Source: an uncultured Rubrobacteraceae bacterium
GTDB lineage: Bacteria; Actinomycetota; Rubrobacteria; Rubrobacterales; Rubrobacteraceae
Direction: 5' to 3'
DNA length: 64,000 nucleotides
NCBI GenBank assembly: GCA_902806095.1
Contig: CADCVF010000039.1
Coordinates: 1-64,000, forward strand
The translations under genes were made by a program, and so were the position numbers. The first letter of the stretch is position 1, and the number at the start of each line of letters is the position of its first letter. Under the pieces are notes generated by a model, which worked only from the letters and a program-made list of their open reading frames with translations, was not told where the DNA came from and made no database searches. Below, in pieces: positions 42,776 through 48,336 of this stretch.

Positions 42776-45700
42776 TTACACTCGTCTCTCGGTCTTCTGG
42801 AGCGCCACAGGCGCCTCCGCCCAACCCTGCCCGGCAAAGTACCTGGCGTAGGTCTCCATGAGATCCCCGTCGATGACGGGCCGAGTAGGCCCGTCGTCAC
42901 CAAGAGCGCGGCGCGCGTTGCTGTCTTCATAGATATTCTCTTCCCAGAGCTCCTCCGCCGCGGGTGAAGCCCCACGCAAGACTTCCCCTGGGGAGTCTAC
43001 TTCCGGTGGAGCGGTGTCTAGCTTCTGCAGCCATTCTTCGTAGGGGAGGCGCTTCAGCGGGTAGCCTTGCTCTTCCAGCAGGTCGAAGACCTCCTCCGCG
43101 GGCGGAGGATCGGGGTTCGCCAGGTGGTAGGTCCCTCCCTGAGCTGCCGGCTCAGTTGCCAGGTGCAGTACCGCCGCGGCCACGAAGTCGACGGGGGTCA
43201 TCTCCATCCGCCACCCCTCGACCTCGGGGGCGCATCCAAGCCGCGTAGACTCCACGATGACCGCTCCGAGCAAATCGCGCGGGTTGGAAGCACCGGATTC
43301 GCTGTGCCCCGAGACGTTGCCGGGGCGGTAGACAGAGACGGGCAGACCGCGCCCGGCGGCCTCCCGTACCAGCATCTCGGCGACCCATTTGGACTGGCCG
43401 TAACCGTCCTCGCGGGCTTCGGCGAGATCGTCGAGGTCGGTGTCTTCCTCGCAGAACCCCATGCCTGGTGGGAAGATGCCGTTCGTAGAGACGTGGTGCA
43501 CGGGCTTCGCACCGTGGCGGCACGCCAGGCGCAAGACCTCGCGCGTGCCGCCGACGTTGGCCGCCTCGAGCGCCGAGTAAGGATAGACGAGGTTAACGAC
43601 GGCACCAGGGTGGAAGATCAGGTCAACCCCGTGTGCCAACACGTCGAAGTCTCTATCGGTCATGCCGAACAACGGCTCCCCGAGGTCTCCGGGAACGGGC
43701 ACGATGCGCGCCTCCCACTCGGGCCGCCACAGCCCGTAGCGCCGCAGGTTGGTCTCGATGGACTCCATCCCGCCTGAGTCGCCGCGCTGCCTGACGAGAC
43801 AGTGTACGCGGGCATCTGTTAGCGAAAGCAGCCCGTCGAGCAGGAAGGCCCCGAGGAAGCCGGTCGCCCCGGTCAGGAAGACGTTGTCACTGTCCCCAAG
43901 GGTACTCGTGCCATCCGGGGCTGGCTGCGGGACTATCTCGGCGTCGAGGACGGCCTCTGCACGCAGGTCTTCAGAAGGCCGTGTCCGTACGTCTTTCCCG
44001 TCGCGTTGTAGCGCCTCAATCCTGTCGCACAGCCCGGCGAGCGTCGGGGCCTCCATGAACAGCGGCATCGAGACGTGGACGCCGAAGCCATCCTCGACGC
44101 GGCTGGAGAGCTGAGCGGCGGCGAGGGAGTGTCCGCCGAGATCGAAGAAGTCGTCCTCGGGCAGCACCTCGCCCTCGTCCAGGCGCAGCACACCCTCCCA
44201 GATCCGTGTGAGCAGCGCCTCCTTCTCGGAGCGGGGTGCCCTTTCGGGAAGTCTGGCTACACCATCTGCGTCATCCCGGGTGGAGCGAGTGGGGCGGGAT
44301 GGCGGAGGTGGGAGTTCGGAGCGGTCGACCTTACCCGAGGTAGCCTGGATCGGGAGCGACTCGAGCTCCACGAAGACGGAAGGGACCGCGTAGTGCGGGA
44401 GGCTGTCTTGCAGGACGCCCCTTATCTCCTTGCTCCGCCCCGTCTTCGGGTCGAGGCTCCAGTCGGAATAGCGCCCGTCATCTTCAGGGTCGGGCACTAT
44501 GTAGGCGACGAGGCGTTTGTCCTCGCCTTCATCGCCCTCCGAGACTACGACGCACGACTTTACGGCGAGGTTCTTCTCGATGGCGGCCTCGACGGCGCCG
44601 AGCTCGACACTGTAGCCCCGAATCTTGACCATAAAATCCACGCGGCCGAGGATCTCCAGGCTCCCATCGGAGAGGATGCGGGCCCTGTCGCCCGTGCGAT
44701 ACATCCTCGCACCGCTCCTGGAGGAGAAAGGGTCTTCTGGGAAGCTCTCTTCGGTCTTCTCGGGCAGGTCTACGTAGCCGCGCGCGAGGCAGTCGCCGCC
44801 GACGAAGAGCTCCCCTGCCTCGCCTTCGGGCACGCGTTCGCCTTCAGCGTCGAGCAGGTAGAGATGCTCCGGGTCCATGGGAACGCCGACGGCGCAGTAC
44901 GTAGACTCGGGGTTCTCGACCAGCTCGCGCAGATCCCCGGCGGCCACCTCGTGAGTCTCGCTGCAACTGTAGACGTTGAACAGTCGCGCATCAGGCAACA
45001 GTTCCATGGCGCGCCGCGCGAGCATGCGGGTTACGACCTCGCCGTTCAGCCACAGCGTCCTCAGTCTCGAGAGCCTCTCGCCCACCTCGGGCCCACTCGA
45101 GTTCAGGACGGCTTCGAGGAGGGATGGGGTAACCAGCGTCTCCGTGATCTCGTACTCTTCGAGAAAGCGGATCAAGGCGTTCGGGTCGTAGATAACGTCG
45201 TCAGGGATGACGACCGTCGTCGCCCCCCGGAGCAGCGGCCGCATCATCTCCCAGATAAAGAACACGTTGCACCCGACCCTGTCGCCAGGGCCGTAGTCGC
45301 TGATGCCGAAACGCCACAGGTAAGACCTTACCGGCGCCCCGTGCGGATTGGCTATCCCCTTCGGCTTCCCCGTCGTCCCAGACGAGTACGAGACGAATGC
45401 CAGGTCATCCTGGCCGACCTCGGGCCTGTCATCTTCCGTCCCGATGTCCTCCAGTCTCTCCACCCAGCCCTCATCGAGGAAGAACGTCTCCGTCCCTTCT
45501 GGCAAGCGATCCGCGTACCGCTCCTGAGTGAGGACCATTGGCGGGCTCGCGTCCGCCACCACATCGGCGAGCAGGGGCGGCGGGTAGGCGAGCTCGAGTA
45601 TCAGGTAAGAGCCGCCGGCTTTCATGGCGGCGAGGCAGGCGACCACATACTCGGCCCGCCGCTCCATGTAAACTCCGACAGGATCGTCCGGACCTATCCC

Positions 45701-45856
45701 CTTGCCCCTGAGGTACGCCGCGAGCCTGTCGGCAAGCCTGTCCAACTCGCGGTAGGTCAGGGAGAGGCTGGCGTCTTCGAGTGCGAGGTTCTCGGGCGTG
45801 CGGCGCGCCTGCTCCTCGAAGAGCTCGTGCAGGCAGAGGTCAGCGGAGTCGGTCAT
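42776..45856 (-). CDS. NRPS-like carboxylic acid reductase (adenylation-thiolation-reductase)
   Basis: 1026 residues from the ATG at 45856. Adenylation domain at about 1-510, with A3 SYSSGTTGKPKG (156-167), A5-like FNVYSCSET, A7 YRTGDRARILSDG and A10 TSGKVDRSELP. Carrier domain at about 540-620 with FDLGGHSLAAAQL; Ser577 would take phosphopantetheine. Reductase domain at about 655-1000 with LTGATGFLGAFLL and Tyr819/Lys823 in YGQSK. It should activate an acid and release an aldehyde or alcohol. The residue at the usual alpha-amino-binding Asp position (four before WEM) is Val198, so the substrate is probably not a standard alpha-amino acid. A coupled 51-codon gene precedes it. Confidence 0.9.
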   Translation of the reverse strand: MTDSADLCLHELFEEQARRTPENLALEDASLSLTYRELDRLADRLAAYLRGKGIGPDDPVGVYMERRAEYVVACLAAMKAGGSYLILELAYPPPLLADVVADASPPMVLTQERYADRLPEGTETFFLDEGWVERLEDIGTEDDRPEVGQDDLAFVSYSSGTTGKPKGIANPHGAPVRSYLWRFGISDYGPGDRVGCNVFFIWEMMRPLLRGATTVVIPDDVIYDPNALIRFLEEYEITETLVTPSLLEAVLNSSGPEVGERLSRLRTLWLNGEVVTRMLARRAMELLPDARLFNVYSCSETHEVAAGDLRELVENPESTYCAVGVPMDPEHLYLLDAEGERVPEGEAGELFVGGDCLARGYVDLPEKTEESFPEDPFSSRSGARMYRTGDRARILSDGSLEILGRVDFMVKIRGYSVELGAVEAAIEKNLAVKSCVVVSEGDEGEDKRLVAYIVPDPEDDGRYSDWSLDPKTGRSKEIRGVLQDSLPHYAVPSVFVELESLPIQATSGKVDRSELPPPPSRPTRSTRDDADGVARLPERAPRSEKEALLTRIWEGVLRLDEGEVLPEDDFFDLGGHSLAAAQLSSRVEDGFGVHVSMPLFMEAPTLAGLCDRIEALQRDGKDVRTRPSEDLRAEAVLDAEIVPQPAPDGTSTLGDSDNVFLTGATGFLGAFLLDGLLSLTDARVHCLVRQRGDSGGMESIETNLRRYGLWRPEWEARIVPVPGDLGEPLFGMTDRDFDVLAHGVDLIFHPGAVVNLVYPYSALEAANVGGTREVLRLACRHGAKPVHHVSTNGIFPPGMGFCEEDTDLDDLAEAREDGYGQSKWVAEMLVREAAGRGLPVSVYRPGNVSGHSESGASNPRDLLGAVIVESTRLGCAPEVEGWRMEMTPVDFVAAAVLHLATEPAAQGGTYHLANPDPPPAEEVFDLLEEQGYPLKRLPYEEWLQKLDTAPPEVDSPGEVLRGASPAAEELWEENIYEDSNARRALGDDGPTRPVIDGDLMETYARYFAGQGWAEAPVALQKTERRV

Positions 45857-46008
45857 GCTAGCGCCCACCGGGAGGGCATTCCCACCACAGATCCCGTACC
45901 AGAGAGGCTCTCCGTGAAGAACACCCACCAGAATACGAGTACCACCGAGATGCCTGCATAGACACCAGATACGCCCACGTCTAACGCTGGGCCCGACAAC
46001 CTTCGCAT
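45853..46008 (-). CDS. Small membrane protein, coupled to the NRPS-like reductase
   Basis: 51 residues, MRRLSGPALDVG then a hydrophobic VSGVYAGISVVLVFWWVFF helix and TESLSGTGSVVGMPSRWALA. AAGGAGAGG stands about eight bases before the ATG at 46008. The TGA overlaps the reductase ATG (ATGA), a classic coupling arrangement. Charge distribution (RR at the start) favours an N-in single-span protein. I know no family for it. It may tether or modulate the reductase, or work mainly as a leader that opens its ribosome site. Confidence 0.65.
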   Translation of the reverse strand: MRRLSGPALDVGVSGVYAGISVVLVFWWVFFTESLSGTGSVVGMPSRWALA

Positions 46009-46098
46009 AACAATCAACCTCTCCTTGCGTTTCTTGTACTACCAACGCGTTGCTTCGAACCGTACGGGGTGCGACAGAACGCCGCAGCAGAAAAGATG

Positions 46099-46139
46099 CG
46101 GACCATGCTCCGGTCGAAGACCCGGAGCGAAGCGGTCCG
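46099..46139 (-). promoter_or_regulatory. Structured leader upstream of the small membrane gene
   Basis: A nested stem: CGGACC...GGTCCG outside and GCTCCGG...CCGGAGC (7 bp) inside around an eight-base loop. It lies about 90 bases upstream of the 51-codon gene in its expected 5' leader, with an AT-rich likely promoter at 46140-46230. It does not match any riboswitch I know. Confidence 0.45.
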
Positions 46140-46237
46140 GAAACGTTGCATAACATACTAACCCGACTGGATGTTGATTCCAGCGGTTATCCTGAATATA
46201 GGTTTAAAGTTGTATTAAGTTTTGTTATGTAAGCATT

Positions 46238-46711
46238 TCAGATCCGGTGCACCAGTAGGGCGTTTCCGAGCAGGAGCAGGATTATCTCGGAGACGGCGAC
46301 CGAGGCGAAGGCGGCCGGGTAAGGCAATCCTGCGACGACGGTGAGGACAATCCCGACGCCGGCTGCGGTCCAGAGGGCGTAGAGTAGCGAGCCGAGGTAG
46401 GTCCCGAGCGCACCGCCGATCCCTCTTGCTACCAGATAGCAGAGCACGCCGCCGGTGACGTCGACGAGCGGCATGAAGGCGAGTTCGAGCGCACCGGCGA
46501 AGGGACTGAAGAGGTTGATGATCACGGTCCCTATCCCGAAGGCTGGGATGACCACGGGGTACTTGATAACAAGCGGCTTGAGGGCCTCTCCGAGCCTGAA
46601 CTGCACAGGCCCGAAGGCGACGGGCGCGACAGCGAGGCTCAAGACGACGTAGAGGGCCCCGACGACCCCTGCGATCGCGACCCTGCGGGCCGGGCTCTGT
46701 CCTTGCGTCAT
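46238..46711 (-). CDS. QueT-family transporter (ECF S-component-like)
   Basis: 157 residues from the ATG at 46711; a longer start at 46765 overlaps the upstream gene. Five to six helices: RVAIAGVVGALYVVLSLAVA, then FGPVQFRLGEALKPLVIKYP (signature region of QueT), GTVIINLFSPFAGALE, LAFMPLVDVTGGVLCYLVAR and a last helix pair. QueT proteins are substrate-binding subunits of energy-coupling-factor importers for queuosine precursors. No ECF ATPases are nearby, so it must share a module or act alone. It starts 8 bases after the transpeptidase stop. Confidence 0.85.
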   Translation of the reverse strand: MTQGQSPARRVAIAGVVGALYVVLSLAVAPVAFGPVQFRLGEALKPLVIKYPVVIPAFGIGTVIINLFSPFAGALELAFMPLVDVTGGVLCYLVARGIGGALGTYLGSLLYALWTAAGVGIVLTVVAGLPYPAAFASVAVSEIILLLLGNALLVHRI

Positions 46712-46719
46712 AAGTCCCC

Positions 46720-48336
46720 CTACTGTGCGAGCGCACAGCCGTCTTTGCGCGGGTCGCTGCCGCACGCCCTGACGCCATTTTCCAGGATGCGGATGAGCTG
46801 TGCACCTCCTGCGGGGATCATGAAGTCTTCTCTTACATCGATGCGATGACCTCGAGCGCGCAGGCGCGCGATCTCGTCTTCAGGAACACGCCCCTCGATG
46901 AGGAGGACGTCGTCCTCGTGGCGGTGGCGAGGGTGCTCGACAGCCTGCTGAGGGTCCATACCGTAGTCGAGGAGGTTGATCAGTAACTGCGCGTGACCCT
47001 GGGGCTGCATCGCAGCGCCCATTACTCCGAAGACGGCCCAGAGGGCACCGTCGCTGGTTGCGAGGCCGGGGATGATGGTGTGCATCGGGCGCTTCCCCGG
47101 AGCGATGGCGTTCGGGTGGCCGGGTTCCAGGCGGAACGATTTGCCGCGGTTGTGGAGGCAGACGCCGGTGCCTTCGGCGACGATACCGCTGCCGAAACCT
47201 TTGTAGAGGCTGTTTATGAAAGAACAGCCGTTGCCCTCCGCGTCCACGGCGCAGAGGTAGGTCGTGTCCCCGCCGGGTGCGGGGTCGGCCGCAAGCTCCG
47301 CCGTGCGTTCCGTCGAGATGCACCCCCGCAAGCTCTCGGCGTAGTCTTTCGAAATCAGACGTCTCGTCGGAATCTCCGCGTGATCCCAGAACTCAGGGTC
47401 TCCTATCTCGTTGTGCAGATCTTCGAAGGCCAGCTTCTTCGCCTCGACCTCGAGGTGGATGCGGTCCGCGCCCAGGGAATCCGTAGAAGCCAGATCGAAC
47501 CCTTCGAGGATGTTTAGCATCTCCAGGGCAGCGACCCCCTGGCCGGGGGGTGCGATCTCGTAGACTCGGATCCCTCTGTAGTCAGCCGAGATCGGCTCCA
47601 CAAAGGTCGATTCGTGGGCTGCGAGATCCTCCACCGAGAGGTAACCGCCGGCCTCCTGCGTGGAGCGCGCGATGCTCGCCGCTATCTCGCCCTTGTAGAA
47701 AGCGTCGGCGCCCCGTTCGGCGACGGCCCAGATCGTGGCCGCCAGGTCTACCTGGGAGAAGACCTCCCCCGCAACAGGAGCCCGGCCTTCCGGCAGAAAG
47801 GTCCGTGTGGCGGCCTCGTTCGTGCGGAGTACGTCTTCGTGTTCCTCCCAGTAGCGGGCGACGACCTCGGCGACGGGGTGGCCGTTCTCCGCGAACTCCC
47901 AGGCTGGCTCGAGTAGGCGCGCCAGAGGCTGGTTCCCAAATTGGTTCACGGCGTCCTCCCACAGCCTGACAGCGCCTGGGACCGTAACAGTGAGGCCCCC
48001 AAGCTCCGGCATCTCGCCCAGATCCATGAGCTTCTCGACAGTAACAGCCCCAGGGGCTCCCCCTGCGCCGTTGACGCCGGTAACCTGTCCTGTCTCGGCC
48101 TCGTAGTACAGCAGGAATGCGTCACCACCCATACCCGTCTGCATCGGTGAGAGAACGGCCATCGCGGCGGCCATCGCGACGCACGCATCGGCGGCGGTCC
48201 CGCCGGCATCGAGAGTGCGGAGGCCGGCCACGGCGGCGCTCGGGTGCTCGCAGGCGACCGTCCCCCTCGTCCCGAAGACCGTCGAACGGCCTCCCGGATC
48301 AGGCCTCCTGCCGACGGTCTTATATCTTCCGGACAC
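46720..48336 (-). CDS. Gamma-glutamyltransferase-family protein
   Basis: 538 residues from a GTG with AGGAGG upstream. It begins without a clear signal peptide. Family blocks: AGGTAADACVAMAAAMAVLS, QTGMGGDAFLLYY, the autoprocessing Thr in PGGDTTYLCAVDAEGNGCSF, FGSGIV, and PGKRPMHTIIPGLA with the MGAAMQPQGHAQLLINLLDY tail. The enzyme is made as a proenzyme cut before the Thr and transfers or hydrolyses gamma-glutamyl groups (or related cephalosporin-acylase substrates). Lack of a signal peptide suggests a cytoplasmic relative. Confidence 0.92.
   Translation of the reverse strand: MSGRYKTVGRRPDPGGRSTVFGTRGTVACEHPSAAVAGLRTLDAGGTAADACVAMAAAMAVLSPMQTGMGGDAFLLYYEAETGQVTGVNGAGGAPGAVTVEKLMDLGEMPELGGLTVTVPGAVRLWEDAVNQFGNQPLARLLEPAWEFAENGHPVAEVVARYWEEHEDVLRTNEAATRTFLPEGRAPVAGEVFSQVDLAATIWAVAERGADAFYKGEIAASIARSTQEAGGYLSVEDLAAHESTFVEPISADYRGIRVYEIAPPGQGVAALEMLNILEGFDLASTDSLGADRIHLEVEAKKLAFEDLHNEIGDPEFWDHAEIPTRRLISKDYAESLRGCISTERTAELAADPAPGGDTTYLCAVDAEGNGCSFINSLYKGFGSGIVAEGTGVCLHNRGKSFRLEPGHPNAIAPGKRPMHTIIPGLATSDGALWAVFGVMGAAMQPQGHAQLLINLLDYGMDPQQAVEHPRHRHEDDVLLIEGRVPEDEIARLRARGHRIDVREDFMIPAGGAQLIRILENGVRACGSDPRKDGCALAQ

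Follow-up and report, generated by a model that had tools for sequence, protein, structure and literature searches.

A conserved structured RNA and a truncated BCCT transporter gene upstream of a putative glycine betaine reductase in Rubrobacteraceae

We present evidence that a 51-codon open reading frame (ORF), which directly precedes a gene for an enzyme with adenylation, carrier and thioester reductase domains (A-T-R) in an uncultured Rubrobacteraceae bacterium, is by sequence comparison the remnant of a BCCT (betaine/carnitine/choline) transporter gene that lost about 1.46 kb from its interior. The leader upstream of it is, on the strength of strong covariation, a conserved structured RNA. 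The window, namely the whole stretch of 64,000 nucleotides that was analyzed, belongs to a genome that we term G000. We regard it as probable that the locus descends from a betaine operon, and that the RNA acts as a cis-regulator and the A-T-R enzyme as a reductase of betaine, with the stump perhaps serving as a coupling leader. The ancestral operon would have comprised the RNA leader, a BCCT betaine transporter and the A-T-R reductase, an arrangement that persists in G002 and G006. According to the alignment, most of the transporter gene was then deleted in G000, which left the first ~42 codons, with their start codon and ribosome-binding site, fused to the A-T-R gene. Of the original prediction for this locus, the structured leader and the connection of leader, small ORF and enzyme are upheld, while the dedicated membrane microprotein is not. 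The locus appears to be a case of a regulatory RNA outliving the gene that it once served, and illustrates that an apparent microprotein can be a gene stump. Its features are the following:

46238..46765 (-): gene for a QueT transporter (PF06177, 8.7e-22), the upstream neighbor
46168..46227 (-): A+T-rich stretch just 5' of the RNA, conserved by DNA similarity and possibly a promoter
46065..46167 (-): conserved structured RNA of ~103 nt, a candidate cis-regulator (covariance-model match, 21 family copies, covariation, no Rfam match)
46099..46139 (-): nested hairpin forming the P2-P4 arm of the RNA, its helices with pairs changed on both sides
46018..46026 (-): Shine-Dalgarno site AAGGAGAGG, by its sequence and the presence of such a site at the corresponding position ahead of the intact BCCT start in G002 apparently inherited from the BCCT gene
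45853..46008 (-): the 51-codon ORF, the 5' remnant of a BCCT gene (tblastn to BCCT N-termini, DNA alignment to G002, relaxed dN/dS)
45868..45903 (-): zone holding the deletion junction (the DNA match to G002 breaks off at 45904 and is taken up again at 45872; protein similarity extends to about residue 42)
42776..45856 (-): A-T-R enzyme, putative glycine betaine reductase (Pfam domains, family-wide orthologs, pocket code)

The leader is a conserved structured RNA

The nested hairpin that had been noted upstream of the ORF is real, and constitutes one arm of a larger RNA running from 46167 to 46065. Using the leader DNA as a query, we recovered further copies ahead of other BCCT genes in G000. 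At the locus itself, DNA similarity to G002-G006 and to G013 sets in near 46227. Of the covariance models, the first was built from 12 copies and the second from 20; the window copy scores 101.6 bits with model R1 and 95.4 bits with R2. Covariation was checked on a MAFFT alignment made without recourse to a covariance model, against 500 shuffles and slid controls. In this alignment 92.8% of the cells pair, and 12 pairs, together with 45 cells, have changed on both sides; none of the 500 shuffles reached the observed covariation, and the slid controls were 34-44% paired. The model-fitted alignment displays 18 pairs changed on both sides. A coding origin of the leader was rejected, as its loops differ by indels of 1-6 nt among the copies and its helices covary. 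A further helix is conceivable in alignment A1, where the AACG on the 5' side (columns 21-24) could pair with the CGTT in the loop of the GCAG-CGTTT-CTGC hairpin (columns 76-88); this possible pseudoknot is paired in only 73.5% of the cells.

Rfam 15 yielded no gathering-level match in the window and, at E-values up to 10, merely chance or unrelated matches to the leader. By comparison with Rfam 15, the RNA class is apparently undescribed. Pairing of the 3' tail of the RNA with the Shine-Dalgarno region is no better than in shuffled sequence and is not conserved; sequestration of that site by the tail was hence set aside as not significant.

Distribution and gene context of the RNA

We accepted 21 copies of the RNA, all from Rubrobacteraceae, and identified the downstream genes by translation, by Pfam searches on a subset and by tblastn. 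Nine copies precede a stand-alone BCCT gene, two a BCCT gene followed by an A-T-R gene, five a BCCT stump followed by an A-T-R gene, and three lie directly before an A-T-R gene (G020, G028 and G024); one heads a ProV-ProW-ProX operon (G002:C28) and one is an orphan. Thus, 20 of the 21 are placed in sense orientation upstream of BCCT, ProVWX or A-T-R genes, with the caveat that the A-T-R-linked copies share common ancestry and are not mutually independent. The BCCT proteins encoded downstream of the RNA are of two types that are only about 50% identical, so that shared flanks alone do not easily account for its placement. Weak matches to the first model, below 25 bits, were not accepted; the copy in G024, directly 5' of the A-T-R gene, was admitted through a separate match to the second model at 26.4 bits. 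The orphan (G030:C1:2185043-2185146) is a strong match (72.7-82.8 bits) with no adjoining betaine gene. Upstream of it are genes resembling a set for type II secretion or pili, and the copy may be an independent RNA or what is left of a decayed locus.

Several A-T-R orthologs are devoid of a detectable RNA. Across 396 actinomycetotal genomes, credible matches were confined to Rubrobacteraceae; weak ones in G108 and G297 were dismissed for lying inside apparent coding sequence, and another (G014:C181) for lying within a translation-factor operon. A set of 24 genomes gathered by way of other loci yielded no copy of the RNA; having no positive control, it carries little weight.

Comparable leaders are known from other taxa, in which the proX motif (SRC-29-1), reported mainly from Spiribacter (PMC8632094), and the opuB motif are riboswitch candidates before genes for transporters of glycine betaine or related osmolytes (PMC8632094, PMC11109978). 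The Rubrobacteraceae RNA is like them in being a structured leader before betaine/osmolyte transporter genes, and within the Rubrobacteraceae it precedes BCCT, ProV and A-T-R genes. Likewise, the Na+-I and c-di-AMP riboswitches are leaders of osmotic-stress genes (PMC9337991), but Rfam 15 gave no match of the Na+-I or c-di-AMP (ydaO) type to the window leader. No betaine or choline riboswitch is named in the literature that we found.

We posit that the RNA most likely regulates betaine uptake and use in cis, possibly as a riboswitch, and would have been kept to control the A-T-R gene after the transporter was lost. That it is instead a regulatory leader of another kind, be it one bound by a protein, one that folds in response to salt or temperature, or one that works by attenuation, has in our estimate slightly less than an even chance: the pairing of its 3' tail revealed no expression platform, and across the genomes searched the RNA keeps to a single family, but its compact multi-helix fold, conserved unpaired positions and one-pathway targets are, while not decisive, like those of riboswitch candidates. 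A more ambitious version of the proposal, which we put forward as speculative and rather unlikely in its full form, is that the Rubrobacteraceae possess a new riboswitch class responding to glycine betaine, to choline or to some related osmotic signal. Both the BCCT/ProVWX transporters and the A-T-R reductase would be under its control, and what remained of deleted transporter genes would find a new use as coupling leader ORFs. As the RNA is compact, covarying and placed before genes of one pathway, its signal is directly testable.

The 51-codon ORF derives from a BCCT transporter gene

The ORF (46008-45853, minus strand; MRRLSGPALDVGVSGVYAGISVVLVFWWVFFTESLSGTGSVVGMPSRWALA) has AAGGAGAGG at 46026-46018, 9 nt ahead of its ATG, and its TGA stop overlaps the A-T-R start in an ATGA at 45856, all as originally described. 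The accompanying statement that it has no recognized homolog does not hold. A tblastn search with the 51-residue peptide in 99 related genomes matched its first 42 residues to BCCT N-termini (in G002 with an E-value of 6.6e-8 and 57% over 42 aa), these matches being the beginnings of open frames of ~540 codons just 5' of the A-T-R orthologs in G002, G006, G035, G032, G034 and G010. The counterpart in G002 is a full BCCT transporter (PF02028, 6e-198), and in the congeners G002 and G006 an intact BCCT gene of ~537 codons stands before the orthologous A-T-R gene. DNA alignment with G002 resolves into two matching blocks, 46227-45904 (80.7%) and 45872-45603 (82.2%), and the BCCT coding sequence that lies between them in G002, about 1.46-1.49 kb, is missing from G000. 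A TAG aligned with the native BCCT stop still stands just ahead of the A-T-R start, where it is out of frame, so that the ORF reads through to the ATGA. In comparison with BCCT transporters (PF02028), the ORF matches the N-terminus but lacks ~90% of the gene and hence cannot be a transporter; it does not contain the full-length transport domain of about 485 positions, and a Pfam search of the peptide gave no match. Four full BCCT genes are present at different loci elsewhere in G000.

Constraint on the stump, and its likely role

The ratio dN/dS, which had been suggested as a check on the small ORF, counts against a conserved protein: between G000 and G002 it is 0.59 over 42 codons and 0.47 over 32 codons, as against 0.20 and 0.14, respectively, between the intact BCCT genes of G002 and G006. 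For the adjacent first 85 codons of A-T-R, dN is 0.12 and dS 0.54 (ratio 0.23), the latter being close to the stump dS of 0.49. These values, which come from few codons and are indicative only, point to relaxed constraint on the stump.

Shorter BCCT relics occupy the same place in G003 (39 codons), G004 (30), G005 (38) and G013 (42), each of which has a start codon as well as a Shine-Dalgarno-like site; the first 66 nt of all four are closer to BCCT starts than is shuffled sequence (p at most 0.0025 with both references). In all five stump-bearing genomes, the stump ORF stops in the range from 8 nt ahead of the A-T-R start to 3 nt within it. The simulated chance of this per locus is 0.14 in G000, 0.16 in G013 and 0.25-0.41 in G003-G005, whose stumps may stem from one shared event; assuming three independent events, the joint chance is of the order of 1%. 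This pattern suggests, though at such per-locus chances it does not prove, translational coupling from the stump to A-T-R. Ribosomes would bind at the Shine-Dalgarno site left over from the BCCT gene and, having read the stump, move on to A-T-R via the ATGA. We give about even odds to the stump serving in this way as a coupling leader rather than through its peptide. The competing view, that the stump is plain debris, the target of the RNA being either A-T-R transcription or a start site belonging to A-T-R itself, is a serious contender that we deem somewhat less than evenly probable: it accords with the relaxed constraint and with the appreciable chance of a stop at the A-T-R start at any one locus, but has to contend with the fact that five genomes retain the start codon, a site resembling a Shine-Dalgarno sequence, and an unbroken frame that reaches the A-T-R start.

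The membrane microprotein of the original prediction, which was supposed to tether or regulate the A-T-R enzyme, is largely refuted, and we consider it very improbable. The strong Shine-Dalgarno site and the overlap with A-T-R speak for it, as does the single hydrophobic segment, which is real (maximum 19-residue Kyte-Doolittle value of 2.01). Nevertheless, the peptide is an N-terminal piece of a BCCT protein with raised dN/dS, and several orthologous A-T-R loci, where conservation of the small ORF was to be looked for, have either intact BCCT genes or shorter stumps. As the latter (G003, G004, G005 and G013) have no hydrophobic segment, a membrane microprotein is not conserved. An assembly artefact concealing an intact gene is a negligible prospect even in a draft genome of 85 contigs, given that the junction sits well within the assembled sequence of a contig of 105 kb, that stumps recur in four other assemblies, and that the accumulated nonsynonymous changes bespeak an old event.

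The A-T-R enzyme as a putative glycine betaine reductase

The A-T-R protein, of 1026 aa as originally described, has the adenylation-carrier-reductase architecture of the ATRR type (AMP-binding PF00501, PP-binding PF00550 and NAD_binding_4 PF07993). Its GrsA-type pocket code, read from a motif alignment, is VFWLWNVEVK, with small changes across 23 family orthologs. In NRPS codes Asp235 binds alpha-amino groups. This residue is missing from the A-T-R pocket, and Phe236, Trp239 and Glu330 are found in 23 of the 23 orthologs, and Trp299 in all of those compared except G031. Aromatic residues and an acid in a pocket devoid of Asp235 could accommodate a quaternary ammonium group. The neighbors of A-T-R at orthologous loci include BCCT, an OpuAC betaine-binding protein with an alcohol dehydrogenase (ADH) and an SDR, TauE and Nramp.

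A precedent exists in the NRPS-like ATRR of fungi and nematodes, which is a glycine betaine reductase (PMC11050029). A-T-R shares with it the adenylation, carrier and reductase domains, and its neighbors and pocket residues make a link to betaine likely. The two differ in that fungal ATRR has two reductase domains, whereas the 1026 aa of A-T-R hold one, with no second reductase domain (R2), and the betaine substrate of A-T-R is putative. Taken together, pocket code and neighbors suggest, short of proof, that A-T-R is a glycine betaine reductase like fungal ATRR, which would probably activate glycine betaine and reduce it to betaine aldehyde or choline. We thereby offer a substrate hypothesis for an enzyme that is common in Rubrobacteraceae. 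At the G022, G036 and G030 loci, A-T-R follows genes for an OpuAC betaine-binding protein, a zinc-dependent ADH and an SDR; a second reduction step supplied in trans by these ADH/SDR neighbors is possible.

Upstream neighborhood and gene start

In G002 a QueF gene separates QueT from the leader; in G000, QueT is retained and QueF is absent from the corresponding place (window 46228-46237) and undetected anywhere in the genome. The A-T-R frame is open far 5' of its start, giving a 1126-codon frame from 46156 (window 45857-46156), and gene callers may consequently misplace the A-T-R start over the RNA and the stump.
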